Below, one piece after another: positions 5,593 through 47,675 of a stretch of DNA of 56,585 nucleotides. Origin of the DNA: Schlesneria paludicola DSM 18645 (GTDB lineage: Bacteria; Planctomycetota; Planctomycetia; Planctomycetales; Planctomycetaceae); contig CAMAYU010000018.1 of assembly GCA_945862235.1 (NCBI GenBank), positions 1-56,585 on the forward strand, read 5' to 3'. The notes under the pieces are model-generated. The model was not told the origin of the DNA and did not search any database. It worked only from the letters and a program-made list of their open reading frames with translations. Within the stretch, counting starts at the first letter, position 1. Every line of letters begins with the position of its first letter. The position numbers were made by a program, and so were the translations under genes.

Positions 5593-5632
5593 CTCTTGGT
5601 CGTTAGCCCGATTTGCGGCTTTCCGAGCGGGG

Positions 5633-5680
5633 CGGCGTCAGCCCCCTGGTTCCGAGTTGATCGAAGCGGGGACTGACGCC
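5633..5680. repeat. Intergenic inverted repeat (GGCGTCAGCCCC word)
   Basis: GGCGGCGTCAGCCCC at 5631-5645 pairs with GGGGACTGACGCC at 5668-5680. The word GGCGTCAGCCCC also occurs near 11710 and a variant near 38143, so it is a dispersed element. Confidence 0.65.
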
Positions 5681-5686
5681 CAAGAA

Positions 5687-5803
5687 CACTCACTTTGAGC
5701 GGCACGGCGCTAGCCGCCGGTAAACGGAGTTGTGTTTCCAAGCAAAGAACCGGCGGCTAGCGCCGTGCCGCTCACGGAGTGAATGACTAAATGAGTGCCA
5801 TTG
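5687..5803. repeat. Palindromic element family B, copy 1
   Basis: A perfect 24-bp inverted repeat (5697-5720 with 5750-5773; GAGCGGCACGGCGCTAGC and so on) forms the core. The right end reads ATGAGTGCCATTG. Copy 2, at 34312-34434, matches over almost the whole length, including the loop AAACGGAGTTGTGTTTCC. The left terminal CAATGG present in copy 2 is missing here, so this copy may have lost its left end. Confidence 0.9.
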
Positions 5804-5876
5804 GGCCTTACGGCACCCGGCTCACCAAAAATGGACTGACAAATCACGACCGTTAGTCATGCACCGATCCAACACG
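5804..5876. repeat. Right half of a family A palindrome
   Basis: GGCCTTACGGCACCCGGCTC then ACCAAA, and further on GACCGTTAGTCATGCACCGA, match the right arm and right flank of family A at 27151-27222 and 34435-34499. The left arm is missing. As at 34 kb, the B element directly precedes the right arm of A, which suggests the same insertion event followed by loss of the left part. Confidence 0.7.
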
Positions 5877-26097: not shown

Positions 26098-26192
26098 AGC
26101 CTGTTGAACATCGTAGAGTAGGCGGCTCGCCTGCTCGTATTTCGAGTTGGAAAACACCGGCGAGCCGCCTGTGCTACGGGTTCTTCCACAGG
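26098..26192. repeat. Palindromic element family C, copy 1
   Basis: The core CGTAGAGTAGGCGGCTCGCC (26112-26131) pairs with GGCGAGCCGCCTGTGCTACG (26159-26178), with ends CAGCCTGTTGAA and TTCCACAGG. Related copies are at 31922-32012 and 38154-38250. Confidence 0.9.
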
Positions 26193-26236
26193 TGACCGGT
26201 GTTTCTGAAGGCCAATCTATCACGAAGGAGTTTGCG

Positions 26237-26788
26237 ATGCGCATCATCCAATCCGCACTGATCGCCACGATCATTTTTGTTACGTCAGTCGCGCGAGCCG
26301 ACATTGAATCGGGGCCGAACGTGGGGACGGCGGTGACGGCGTTGAAGGTCTTCGCGGCGACGGGCGATCACGCGGGGAAGGTACTCGACTTCGCGGCCGA
26401 TCGCGGCGCAAAGCCGACCGTGTACGTGTTCATCCCATATGACCGGTTCGACCGGCCCTTGGCTCGATTGCTGAAGACACTCGAAAAGTCGGTGATCGAG
26501 GCGGGGAATGAAGCGACCGTCGTGACGGTGTTCCTCGCCGATGACGAAGCGGCCGCGAAGGACCGCCTGCCGAAAGTTCAGATGTCGTTGCAGTTCACCT
26601 CCAACCCGCTCGCCATCTTTCCGAGCATGAAGCAAGGGCCGGAAGGCTGGCAGGTGAACACCGATGCGCAGTTGACGGCCCTCGTCGTGAAAGAGGGCAA
26701 AGTCGCCGCGAAGTTCGGCTACAGATCGGCCAACGAAACCGTCGCACCGGAGATCGTCGAAGCACTCAAAAAAACGATTGGAAAGTAG
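26237..26788 (+). CDS. Secreted thioredoxin-fold-like protein
   Basis: A 183-residue protein with a signal peptide (MRIIQSALIATIIFVTSVARA). The body has the order of a thioredoxin/peroxiredoxin-like fold: KPTVYVFIPYDRFDRPLARL, ATVVTVFLADDEAAAKDRL, NPLAIFPSMKQGPEGW, then TALVVKEGKVAAKFGYRSAN. No CxxC pair is present, so it is not a classical redox enzyme. AAGGAG lies 6 nt before the ATG at 26237; the longer frame from 26147 runs back through a family C palindrome. The stop is followed at once by repeat G. Confidence 0.6.
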   Translation: MRIIQSALIATIIFVTSVARADIESGPNVGTAVTALKVFAATGDHAGKVLDFAADRGAKPTVYVFIPYDRFDRPLARLLKTLEKSVIEAGNEATVVTVFLADDEAAAKDRLPKVQMSLQFTSNPLAIFPSMKQGPEGWQVNTDAQLTALVVKEGKVAAKFGYRSANETVAPEIVEALKKTIGK

Positions 26789-26975
26789 TAGTTATTCCGT
26801 TGCCGTGGGGGACACTCGTGAGCAAGGAACGGTGGGCAGATTGGCTTGGATGCCGCGTCCACCTCTTCTCTCAGTTCGCCTTCTCTGTGCTTCGGTGACT
26901 CTGTGGTAAACCTTCTTCGATGACGTTCCCGGAAGCGGATTTAACCACTGAGGCGCAGAGGCACAGAGAAGGCAA
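26787..26975. repeat. Dispersed repeat family G, copy 1
   Basis: It begins at the stop codon of the preceding gene with AGTAGTTATTCCGTTGCCGT then GGGGGACACTCGTGAG. It continues to TCTTCGATGACGTTCCCGGA and TTTAACCACTGAG. Copy 2 at 47486-47675 shares these blocks in the same order. The second half is also palindromic (CTTCTCTGTGC...GCACAGAGAAGG). It fills much of the gap 26789-27228. Confidence 0.85.
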
Positions 26976-27077: not shown

Positions 27078-27222
27078 GACCGGCGCATCAATTCCTGTCG
27101 GAATTGTGGTAAGCCGGGTGCCGTAAGGCCCCGGACTCTTCGTCGAAGAATCCGGGGCCTTACGGCACCCGGCTTACCAAGGTCAAAAAAACAACCTCGA
27201 CCGTTGTTGATGTGCCAACCCT
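27078..27222. repeat. Palindromic element family A, intact copy
   Basis: Perfect 28-bp arms lie at 27108-27135 and 27151-27178 (GGTAAGCCGGGTGCCGTAAG...) around a loop that itself forms CTTCG-TCGAAG. Outer partial arms are GGCGCATCAA near 27082 and TTGATGTGCC near 27207. Other copies are at 34222-34499 (interrupted by B) and 5804-5876 (right half only). Confidence 0.95.
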
Positions 27223-27914: not shown

Positions 27915-27994
27915 TCTTCCCCCGTGTCCTCCCGTGCTCCCCGTGGTTCTTTCAGAGAGCAACCACGGGGAGCACGGGAGGACACGGGGGAAGA
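27915..27994. repeat. Perfect 34-bp inverted repeat
   Basis: The arms 27915-27948 and 27961-27994 are perfect reverse complements over 34 bp (TCTTCCCCCGTGTCCTCCCG...) with a 12-base loop that again holds CTTTC-AGAG. It lies between divergent genes starting at 27801 and 28237. The rest of this gap (27995-28236) shows nothing further that I can name. Confidence 0.95.
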
Positions 27995-31880: not shown

Positions 31881-32044
31881 CGTAGGCCGGACCCCTTGGT
31901 TCGGCTGTATCTGACGGCCGGTTGATAAACGTAGAGTAGGAGGCTGGCCTGCTCGCATTTCTAAAGGCAAAATACAAGCGGGCCGCCTGTGCTACGGCTT
32001 GTTCAATAGGTTTCTGACGGCCGGACCAAGGGGGCCGGCCTACG
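31881..32044. repeat. Palindromic element family D, copy 1, split by a family C element
   Basis: The arms are CGTAGGCCGGACCCCTTGG at 31881 and CCAAGGGGGCCGGCCTACG ending 32044. The loop is interrupted at 31922-32012 by a C element, and the 12 bases TCTGACGGCCGG occur on both sides of it (31910-31921 and 32013-32024). Removing one copy and the C element restores an almost continuous ~60-bp hairpin. Confidence 0.9.
31922..32012. repeat. Palindromic element family C, copy 2 (inside D)
   Basis: CGTAGAGTAGGAGGCTGGCC (31930-31949) pairs with GGGCCGCCTGTGCTACG near 31980-31996, with end words GGTTGATAAAC and GTTCAATAGG that correspond to the CCTGTTGA and TCAACAGG ends of copy 3. Confidence 0.88.
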
Positions 32045-32335
32045 TTGAGTTGCAGCCATCGCCACCCCTTCGACTTTACGGATCGGGTTCCCCTTGCTCG
32101 GGCTGACGCGCGAACCTGACGGCAGCATTCTAGCGGCTGGCGCGATGAGTGGGATGATGGACCGCGAGGAGTCACGCGAGCAGCGGAAATTGCAGAATCT
32201 CCTTGACCCTAGGAGGTCACCGGACGATCTTACTCCCCGAGATGCCGTCTTCCGCACGGTTCGTTCGACATTCCGCCGTCTCAGTTGGGAAGCGACCTCC
32301 CGACCCATCGCGGCCAGTTCACATCGGGTGTCATC

Positions 32336-34090
32336 ATGCTGCGTTCCCGTTCTGTATTCGCTCAATTGGTGGCAGGTCTGGGGTGTGTCCTCGCCCTGTC
32401 GGTCTCAGTGAGAGCCGCCGAGGCTCAACCCAAGCTCGACCGGGCACAGCAGGTGGCAGCTCACCTCGCTGCGGGTGAGTTCGGTCCGGCCCTCAATCTG
32501 GCCAAGACCGCAGCCAGCCCGGCCGAACAAGCGGGGCTGCTGAACAACGTCGCGGCGGCTCAACAGAGTGCCGGTGAAACGACGGCAGCATCGGGAACGA
32601 TGCAACAGGCCAGTCGAGCCAATGGTCGCCGAGCCGGTGGGCAAGGTGCTGGCGGAGGCAGTCAAGCGGGAAGCGGTGGCTTCGGCGGCGGTGGCTCGCT
32701 GGCCGACTTCACCACGCTGATGACGCTCATCATGGAGAACACCTCGGGCAAGTGGGAGGCCGAGGATGGCGAAGGTGGCACGATGTCACCGTTCCCCACC
32801 GGCGTGCGCGTCGCGCCAGGTGGACTGCTGCAAAAGCTCACGCAAGAAGAACAAACCGGCGTGCTGGCTTCGCTGGGGACGACCGCTCGCAAGGCGGACC
32901 TCAACGCGGACGTGGCTCAACGCTCGGACCTGCGGATGGTCTCGCTGACTCGTTTGGAGAAGGCGGTCGCTCAGCGATTGGCTGACGGCGAGCCGGTTCC
33001 CGAAACGATGGCTCAACTCGCCGGGTTGTCTCAAATCAAGTACGTCTTCGTGTACCCGGAAGCCAACGAGATCGTGCTGGCGGGGCCGGCCGAAGGCTGG
33101 CAATACAACGCTCAAGGACAGCCGGTCGCCGTCAGCAATGGCCGGCCGACGCTGCAACTCGATGACCTCGTCACCGTGCTGCGGACGTTTGCCAAAGGCA
33201 ACGCCGACTTCGGTTGCTCGATCAACACGCGCGATGCGGGAGTCCGGGCGCTGACCGACTATGTGCAGAAGTCGCAGTCCAAGGGAGCGATCAGTTCGGT
33301 GGCCGTCAAAGGCTGGGTGAATGCCCTCCAACACAAGCTCGGTCGCCAAGACATCGAAGTCTGGGGCGTTCCCGGTGACAGCCGCGTCGCCCGCGTGATC
33401 GTGGAAGCGGACTATCGGATGAAGTTGATCGGGATCGACAAGCTCGATGCGGGCAAGGATGTTCCGAGCTACTTCGACCTGCTGCCGGTCGCTCAGCAGA
33501 AGAACGTCCAGACGATGGACGCGTTGCGATGGTGGCTCACGATGAAGTACGACGGCGTGCAACACAGTGCCGACAAGAGTGCCTTCGAGATCGCAGGGTC
33601 TTCCGTTCTCTGTCAGTCCGAAAATCAACTGCTGACGGCCGATGGCAAGCATGTGCCGACCGGGAAGTCGGAAGCGACCAACCGCATGTTCGCGCAGAAC
33701 TTCACCGCGAACTACGACAAGCTGGCTGCTCGCGACACGGTGTTCGCGGATACCCAGAACGTCTTCGATCTCGCGCTGGTCTCGGCTCTGATCCAACACG
33801 AAAACCTGAACGACAAGGCTCACTGGGACATGGGTGCGTTCGCTCCGAACGGCGCTTATTCACCAGCCCGCTACGCTGTTCCGAAAGAATGTGAATCGGT
33901 CGTCAACCATCGCGTCTACAACGGCAAGGACATCGTGGTCCAGATCGCCGGGGGCGTGAAGGGGGACGTGATGTCCGTCGTGAAGGACAAGGCTCTGAAC
34001 ACCGAATCGCCTCGCTTGGGCAATGTGGCTCAATCCGCCAAAGCGGGCGATCTCCCCGCCGGTCGTTGGTGGTGGGATGCCGCTCGGTAG
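32336..34090 (+). CDS. Secreted DUF1598 family protein
   Basis: A 584-residue protein with a signal peptide (MLRSRSVFAQLVAGLGCVLA, cut after VRAAEA). A Gly-rich linker (GGQGAGGGSQAGSGGFGGGG) lies near 95-120. The central part with ETMAQLAGLSQIKYVFVYPE then ANEIVLAGPAEGW is the hallmark of DUF1598, a family largely confined to Planctomycetes with unknown function. The ATG at 32336 has no clear ribosome site; the frame is open to 32285. An intrinsic terminator follows at 34125. The left gap (32045-32335) shows nothing further that I can name. Confidence 0.85.
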   Translation: MLRSRSVFAQLVAGLGCVLALSVSVRAAEAQPKLDRAQQVAAHLAAGEFGPALNLAKTAASPAEQAGLLNNVAAAQQSAGETTAASGTMQQASRANGRRAGGQGAGGGSQAGSGGFGGGGSLADFTTLMTLIMENTSGKWEAEDGEGGTMSPFPTGVRVAPGGLLQKLTQEEQTGVLASLGTTARKADLNADVAQRSDLRMVSLTRLEKAVAQRLADGEPVPETMAQLAGLSQIKYVFVYPEANEIVLAGPAEGWQYNAQGQPVAVSNGRPTLQLDDLVTVLRTFAKGNADFGCSINTRDAGVRALTDYVQKSQSKGAISSVAVKGWVNALQHKLGRQDIEVWGVPGDSRVARVIVEADYRMKLIGIDKLDAGKDVPSYFDLLPVAQQKNVQTMDALRWWLTMKYDGVQHSADKSAFEIAGSSVLCQSENQLLTADGKHVPTGKSEATNRMFAQNFTANYDKLAARDTVFADTQNVFDLALVSALIQHENLNDKAHWDMGAFAPNGAYSPARYAVPKECESVVNHRVYNGKDIVVQIAGGVKGDVMSVVKDKALNTESPRLGNVAQSAKAGDLPAGRWWWDAAR

Positions 34091-34157: not shown

Positions 34158-34221
34158 ATTTGTGGCCGAACGAAATCGAGCGACCTCGACAGCGACGCAG
34201 CCCGGCGCGAGAATCGCGTTA

Positions 34222-34499
34222 GAATCGGCGCATCAATCACTGCCGCAATTTGGTGAGCCGGGTGCCGTAAGGCCCCGGACTTTACGTCGAGGAAATCCGG
34301 GGGCTTACGGCCAATGGCACTCACTTTGAGCGGCAAGGCGCTAGCCGCCAGTAAACGGAGTTGTGTTTCCAAGCAAAGAACCGGCGGCTAGCGCCGTACC
34401 GCTCACGGAATGAATGACAAAGTGGGTGCCATTGGGCTTACGGCACCGGGCTCACCAAAGCCAAATAGAAAACCCCGACGGTGATTGATGCGCCGATCC
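34222..34499. repeat. Palindromic element family A, copy split by a family B element
   Basis: The outer arms GAATCGGCGCATCAATCAC (34222-34240) and GTGATTGATGCGCCGATCC (34481-34499) match at 18 of 19 bases. The inner arms carry the GAGCCGGGTGCCGTAAGG word. The right inner arm is interrupted by element B at 34312-34434, with GGCTTACGGC present on both sides (34302-34311 and 34435-34444). Without B, the palindrome reads like the intact copy at 27078-27222. Confidence 0.93.
34312..34434. mobile_element. Family B element, copy 2: MITE-like insertion with 10-bp target duplication
   Basis: A 123-bp element with end inverted repeats CAATGGCACTCACTTT and AAAGTGGGTGCCATTG (15 of 16). It contains the long core palindrome GCGCTAGCCGCC...GGCGGCTAGCGC. 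A 10-bp direct repeat GGCTTACGGC flanks it. It has no coding capacity. This is the form expected of a small non-autonomous transposable element; no transposase gene is in the window. Confidence 0.8.
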
Positions 34500-34548
34500 T
34501 AAGCAGTGTTGACGACGACCGCACGAAATATGGAACAGCCCCGCTCTC

Positions 34549-38153: not shown

Positions 38154-38250
38154 AGCCTGTTGATGAACCTTCGAGTAGGCGGCTCGCCTGCTCACATTTC
38201 CAGCTGGAGAACACGGGCGAGCCGCCTGTGCTACGGTTTTTCAACAGGCT
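38154..38250. repeat. Palindromic element family C, copy 3 (complete)
   Basis: This is the most complete C element: perfect 10-bp ends AGCCTGTTGA (38154-38163) and TCAACAGGCT (38241-38250) with the core GAGTAGGCGGCTCGCC...GGCGAGCCGCCTGTGC. It is 97 bp long. No direct repeat was found on its flanks. A variant of the GGCGTCAG word touches its left end. Confidence 0.92.
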
Positions 38251-47485: not shown

Positions 47486-47675
47486 AGTAGTTATTCCGTT
47501 CCCGTGGGGGACACCCGTGAGGGTGGAACGGTGAGCAAGAATGGCCTCGATGCCCCGTCCACCTCTTGAAATGAAACACAGCCGCTCTGTGGTAAACCTC
47601 TGTGGTGAACCTTCTTCGACGACGTTCCCGGAAGAGGATTTAACCACCGAGCGGCCATGTTTCGTTTCAAGAAAT
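47486..47675. repeat. Dispersed repeat family G, copy 2
   Basis: It shares AGTAGTTATTCCGTT, CCGTGGGGGACAC, CGTCCACCTCTT, CTTCTTCGACGACGTTCCCG and GGATTTAACCACCGAG with copy 1 at 26787, in the same order. It has its own palindrome: CTTGAAATGAAACACAGCCG (47565-) with CGGCCATGTTTCGTTTCAAG (ending 47671). The gap to 47794 holds a further partial palindrome built on GGGGATCAGG and TCACGCGGAGCGAGG words. Confidence 0.82.

Follow-up and report, generated by a model that had tools for sequence, protein, structure and literature searches.

Transposition into repeated palindromes is established in bacteria, and insertion sequences that target REP palindromes, including members of the IS4 family, are already known. 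The IS4 family is marked by the YREK signature, Y(2)R(3)E(6)K, and IS231A, one of its members, inserts in GGGNNNNNCCC with duplications of 10-12 bp. REPINs, which belong to RAYT systems with an HUH transposase, are likewise short palindromic repeats present in high copy. In Sinorhizobium meliloti, all nine copies of ISRm22 (IS4 family) lie in a REP palindrome, and some have imperfect repeats that were ascribed to recombination between copies, while the IS3-family elements IS1397 and ISKpn1 target palindromic units with a specificity ascribed to the transposase (Tobes and Pareja 2006, PMC1525189). Bacterial MITEs, i.e., gene-less mobile elements such as RUP, NEMIS, and Nezha, measure 70-300 bp, carry terminal inverted repeats, and lack coding capacity, and REP families are also mentioned in Planctomycetes (PMC3733652).

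Element B is a 123-bp sequence at positions 34312-34434 (+ strand) of the window, by which the whole stretch of 56,585 nucleotides that was analysed is meant. It is very probably a MITE, and the insertion sequences with which it shares its ends belong to the same family as IS231A, and would resemble it, by the general description of IS231A, in a partly symmetric, G/C-edged target and in duplication length. The B system resembles that of ISRm22 in its IS4-family relationship, in the use of a repeated palindrome as target, and in the recombination invoked for imperfect repeats. ISRm22, however, makes 6-bp repeats at the palindrome axis, and only full-length copies are described in the available part of that article (PMC1525189), whereas the B system has 10-bp repeats in the arm of palindrome A or C, comprises MITEs as well as insertion sequences, and has planctomycete relatives. 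IS1397 and ISKpn1 share with B the specificity for repeated palindromes but use another transposase family, and no MITE is mentioned for them in the same part of that source (PMC1525189). RUP, NEMIS, and Nezha are like B in size and inverted repeats, and insertion into arms of a second family of palindromes goes unmentioned in the available portion of the corresponding article (PMC3733652).

An earlier note on this DNA, made from the letters of the window, had described B with 16-bp inverted ends, a 10-bp duplication around it, and a host palindrome that is restored when B and one 10-mer are taken out; all three features were borne out. The ends, CAATGGCACTCACTTT (34312-34327, +) and AAAGTGGGTGCCATTG (34419-34434, −), are complementary at 15 of 16 positions. 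At up to three mismatches, the end 16-mer occurs four times in the window against 0.48 expected (0 of 100 shuffles reached four), and all four matches are ends of two B copies. The perfect 10-bp duplication GGCTTACGGC (34302-34311 and 34435-34444, both +) has exactly two occurrences in the window, both directly flanking B. Within B lies an inner palindrome with its left arm at 34327-34352 (+), which has a further target-like motif, GGCGCTAGCC, at 34337, and its right arm at 34380-34405 (−), which contains GGCTAGCGCC at 34386. The left arm, loop, and inner right arm of the host, palindrome A, are found at 34251-34301 (+; 86% to 27107-27157), and the outer part of its right arm, including the second duplication copy, continues at 34435-34461 (+). 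A larger palindrome surrounds A, its outer arms at 34219-34245 (+) and 34476-34502 (−) being 89% complementary. An empty A, with one target in each of its 36-bp arms (97% complementary), is present at 27107-27180 (+); the alignment score to this copy is 57 when B and one GGCTTACGGC are removed, as compared with 47 when both GGCTTACGGC are kept. The B-in-A structure folds at −165.9 kcal/mol (z = −12.55 vs 200 shuffles). The site is intergenic, with a DUF1598 protein upstream (32285-34090) and a UvrC-like protein downstream (from 34549), and no Rfam match was obtained in the window at the gathering threshold.

B is abundant in the genome from which the window comes (G000, an assembly of 6.83 Mb in 377 contigs with 97% completeness), in which at least 40 near-full-length matches were found (all 40 scored, the best of 180 candidates). 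The whole-genome search for B ends that the earlier note had proposed returned 91+104 (195) matches at up to two mismatches against 4+4 (8) for a reversed-pattern control, and the target-plus-end pattern at up to three mismatches gave 98+107 (205) against 0+2 (2). Both flanks were read for 56 copies, which were chosen rather than sampled at random from 30 loci of the 40 scored, the window, and 33 regions from 100 listed of the 195 ends; three entries were excluded prior to counting, namely C18:48583, where two ends pair over 221 bp by chance, a 222-bp pairing that duplicates the C172 element, and a B copy with a cut flank (C35:38674). Flanking duplications, which the note had asked for in other copies, are widespread: the 10-bp flanks are identical in 25 of the 56 copies and one base apart in 20, i.e., they agree at nine or more of ten positions in 45, and at eight or fewer in the other 11. 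Because the target is conserved, right flanks were shuffled among copies 10,000 times, which gave a mean of 7.9 and a maximum of 18 identical pairs, with a mean identity of 7.1 of 10. The length is exactly 123 bp in 45 copies, which differ on average by 3.0% from their consensus (three equal it) and by 5.4% from one another; the remaining 11 measure 41, 53 (two), 62, 73, 116, 120, 122, 124 (two), and 197 bp. B occurs in either orientation and, to judge from the four inner bases, in either arm. At L049:2993 (C4 of the same genome), the same B end stands in an A-type target and is followed by a different palindrome, which suggests a MITE family with varied palindromic cargo.

The target of B reads GGC/GCC-N4-GCC/GGC and is present in palindrome C as well as in A. 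The earlier claim that B prefers A has to be amended, since the target lies in C arms as well as in A arms and in some cases in a free-standing core palindrome, so that there is no preference for A alone. GGC-N4-GCC stands on at least one side of 45 of the 56 copies (53 with the looser G(G/C)C-N4-G(G/C)C), and the inner four bases are mostly GTCA, TGAC, GTAA, or TTAC. As in REP-targeting systems, insertion takes place at one defined point of a palindrome. With 2 of 11 mismatches allowed, an A or C arm was recognised no more than 60 bases away, to one side or both, for 52 of 56 copies vs 151 of 2000 random window positions. Of 47 sites emptied of B, 39 scored as inverted-repeat arms (17 of 24 or better) and eight did not; this score was reached by 8 of 400 positions drawn at random from the window and by 4 of its 34 GGCNNNNGCC sites, all four inside B copies. 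The latter test was run without nine of the 56 copies, eight with flanks matching at six positions or fewer and one with too little flank. Copies without a recognised A or C arm are those at C184, C60, C11:25424, and C9:67682, of which C184, adjoining a contig start, reads by eye as A and C60 as C, both being near misses. A arms number 253+256 in G000 (1+0 in the control), so most A copies are probably empty by this estimate. The B end at C35:6840 and a broken insertion sequence of the same genome both sit in a free-standing core palindrome; the former had been considered as B inside B, a reading that was dropped because the left side of its host core palindrome shows no B end.

The restriction to palindromes may have come about in another way, in that an IS4-type MITE inserted more widely and selection removed the insertions in genes, the 10-mer surviving in palindromes. 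The exact 10-mer GGCGTCAGCC is indeed mostly palindrome sequence, with 241+270 (511) occurrences in G000 vs 34+35 (69) for the reversed control and 20 of the first 30 listed sites scoring as inverted-repeat arms, so that recognition of structure and recognition of motif are indistinguishable here. The broader GGCNNNNGCC sites, however, are common (34 in the window, four in inverted repeats, all of them B's own), yet only 4 of 56 copies are without an A or C arm, although this comparison pools genic and intergenic sites. Selection is thus a possible but doubtful source of the pattern; it concerns the origin of the pattern, and the identity of B is unaffected by it.

Candidate partners of B are insertion sequences in related genomes. 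When 170 genomes of the same family were scanned with GCC plus the B end (up to two mismatches), 62 genomes from 23 of 58 genera gave matches, a spread that is partly chance since the reversed control matched in 20 of the 170 genomes (counted by hand). Paired B-type ends enclose 1487-1488 bp in G121, G120, G115, and G122, and 1568 bp in G075. In the first set of full-length elements (L187-L205, five genomes, 1487-1568 bp), to which the count was confined because some places recur under two locus names among all the rows, perfect 10-bp GGCNNNNGCC duplications were found in 19 of 19; their GGC/GCC edges are partly selected by the GCC edge of the search pattern, in which two mismatches were allowed, while their equal inner bases and 10-bp duplication length are free of such selection. 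Elements outside this set have imperfect flanks, e.g., 6/10 at L228, 8/10 at L239 and L254 (the same place), and 9/10 at L253. As read by eye, all five sites in G121 share ccg(g/c)GGCTAACGCC(c/g)t(g/a)cggct, and eight of nine sites in G075 read gggc(c/a)GGC-N4-GCCggcc, the ninth being oppositely oriented. The insertion sequences and B both end in [C/T]AATGGCACTNANTTT or a near variant of it, and they also have in common the 10-bp duplication and a target of the GGC-N4-GCC type. A transposase whose own ends match those of B, for which the earlier note had proposed to look, is thus present in related genomes.

The two partner transposases tested (456 and 511 aa) match DDE_Tnp_1 (PF01609) above the cut-off and the NCBIfam IS4-family model NF033592 with 167 and 177 bits (cut-off 115). 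Invariant in six aligned partner proteins are D138, D218, and E327, which we take to be the IS4 catalytic residues, and Y320-R323-E327-K334, presumably the YREK signature. A scan of genome contigs with a protein query, which contains neither end nor target, yielded 14 loci, of which two, and probably a third, belong to the G081 assembly; the end is present in 13 of the 14 at up to 4 of 16 mismatches and in 12 at up to two, and 11 have a GGC-N4-GCC flank on one side or both. L261 and L262 have the end but a different flank, and L264 (29% identical) has no end. Most of these loci are titled planctomycetes, and four carry the provisional labels Emcibacter, Nitrospirota, Gammaproteobacteria, and Comamonadaceae. 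At L256, GGCGTCAGCC is duplicated inside an A-like sequence. Among more distant IS4-type transposases (about 26-30% identical; L241, L245-L250), B-type ends were found in none of the seven loci fetched. An 867-bp form with both ends and transposase fragments (L206, G163:C143) may have arisen by internal deletion and represent a stage between insertion sequence and MITE.

Palindromes of these families also seem to recombine, and B might have reached the A arms by recombination or slippage between palindromes, with the 10-bp repeat as a by-product of shared sequence. The second B copy in the window is a case in point. It lies at 5687-5803 (+; 94% over query positions 7-123), with its left end altered and its first six bases mostly replaced where it is joined to the left arm, loop, and right-arm start of palindrome C (5624-5686, +), and it is adjoined by a right arm of A (5803-5829, −; 100% complementary to 34249-34275). 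The earlier note was right that this is a real copy followed by the right arm of A, but the copy is a C-B-A recombinant; with C on its left, its two 10-bp flanks match each other at 2 of 10 positions, so that it shows no target duplication itself and lends no independent support to transposition. In addition, 5 of the 56 copies (C11:18482, C121:10292, C154:3968, C34:28619, and C45:14684 of the same genome) have reverse-complement targets on their left and right sides (GGCGTCAGCC / GGCTGACGCC and one variant), and therefore B replaces the whole palindrome centre there. The 10-mer shared by A and C also makes the flanks of different copies agree often, as the shuffled mean indicates. As an account of B itself, recombination is nonetheless very improbable: identical flanks exceed the shuffled expectation by far (25 vs 7.9), rare flank variants (GCCTCACGGC, GCCTGACGGC, and GGCTTACGGC) match within one copy, and the transposase-bearing full-length elements of the first set have the same 10-bp repeat throughout. 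We propose instead that B copies recombined with one another, which would account for the 5687 hybrid, for the centre replacements, and for the 11 copies with flanks agreeing at eight or fewer positions. A REPIN-like nature of B, with movement by a RAYT (HUH/Y1 transposase) as for gammaproteobacterial REP sequences, can practically be dismissed, since B and A resemble such repeats as short palindromes in high copy but B has long terminal inverted repeats, 10-bp target duplications, of a kind that to our knowledge HUH transposition does not leave, and full-length relatives with a DDE transposase.

B is thus best described, with high confidence, as a MITE that would be moved in trans by transposases of this IS4-family insertion sequence group, a reading based on homology and anatomy. 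It is short, has no coding capacity, and has terminal inverted repeats and dispersed copies with target duplications, and it shares its ends and duplication length with an autonomous element found in related genomes, of which only a broken copy was found in its own. The earlier view of B as a non-autonomous, DDE-type element is likewise supported by the copy number, the 10-bp duplication together with ends common to IS4-family insertion sequences, and this broken copy. The predicted mechanism is cut-and-paste transposition or copying by an IS4-family DDE transposase. The transposase would bind both B ends and cut B out (or copy it), B would be joined to a GGC-N4-GCC-like site of a palindrome arm, opened by cuts with a 10-bp stagger, and gap repair would make the 10-bp duplication. 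With the target sites in abundant non-coding palindromes, insertion would be harmless and copies could accumulate, and later recombination between copies would make hybrids such as that at 5687.

Of 24 chosen genomes searched with the 456-aa protein, 18 gave matches. In G000 there are five fragments, four of them in a relic at C26:10843-11773 and one at C7:34759-34890. The C26 relic sits behind the end CAATGGCACTGACTTT, which is preceded by GGCTAGCGCC in a core palindrome; it has a stop and frame changes, is without residues of about 149-251 (including, by alignment, the second catalytic aspartate), and has no recognised right end. With this query, no intact transposase of the partner group was found in the G000 assembly. 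As the only related transposase there is broken, B is probably immobile at present, or else it was driven by an insertion sequence that has been lost or is missing from the assembly; an intact driver may also be hidden as a collapsed repeat. G010, which has more B relatives than any other genome of the same genus, gave no match to the 456-aa protein. A PF01609 transposase on C15 of G000 (L089), the DDE match of which starts about 0.6 kb downstream of a B-like end, was considered as a partner and rejected as an unrelated insertion: it carries TAGG/CCTA ends itself, and its multi-copy relatives in G086 and G047 have TAGG...CCTA ends with short repeats of about 5 bp (by eye). L089:1042-2098 is a separate decayed insertion sequence with the ends TAGGAGTGACGCAGTG / CACTGCGTAACTCCTA.

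Relatives of B occur in other genomes. G010 has 184-bp relatives with perfect duplications, GCCGTCAGGC at L129 and GGCGTTGACC at L155, and among the 10 end pairs of plausible length in this genome these two alone have identical flanks. A family scan of 30 loci gave identical flanks in 5 of 13 end pairs, three of which repeat the set of 19 full-length elements, and some of the other pairs are probably chance. B-like DNA was found at E ≤0.001 in six of 59 genomes including its own, and the 14 loci read in the other five mostly show the inner core and lack B ends. B and the insertion sequences agree over no more than about 16 bp at either end; the interior of B is a different palindrome, so B is no plain deletion of an insertion sequence and would rather appear to consist of insertion-sequence ends around a pre-existing palindrome. 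Several G010 relatives have an extra GGCGCTAGCC adjoining an end: at L154:2415, L151:2469, L152:2427-2450, and L128:1009-1032, an extra GGCGCTAGCC or its complement stands between the MITE end and the A target, or two MITEs share one 10-mer. These extra 10-mers are possibly footprints of excised neighbours.

Each B contains two further GGC-N4-GCC motifs (GGCGCTAGCC) inside its own palindrome, and exactly this 10-mer adjoins several insertions, namely the broken insertion sequence of the own genome, the B end at C35:6840, several G010 MITEs, and one full-length insertion sequence in G127. A tentative reading is that B carries its own landing site, whereby a palindrome-targeting transposase group would make more landing pads and build the nested palindromes of these planctomycete genomes. 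If true, B would offer a possible origin for the nested palindromes in these genomes. B links repeated palindromes, MITEs, and IS4-family insertion sequences by one 10-bp landing rule in several genera, and the partner transposase provides a concrete candidate driver and a natural system for the question of palindrome structure versus short motif. The surprise is limited in that REP-targeting transposition is already known; a literature search for planctomycete MITEs or REP-targeting MITEs, judged by title and abstract start, found no B-like element and no earlier description of a MITE that targets REP palindromes while carrying the target motif itself.

Further repeats were noted in the window. 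A 95-bp family with a GTAGGCGGCTCGCC-like core is present at 26099-26193, 31917-32011, and 38156-38250, the latter two copies being 79% and 72% like the first. A repeat block occurs in two copies 20.7 kb apart (26787-26952 and 47486-47651), which are 87-93% alike in pieces, and a perfect 34-bp inverted repeat, with 12 bases separating its arms, lies at 27915-27994.
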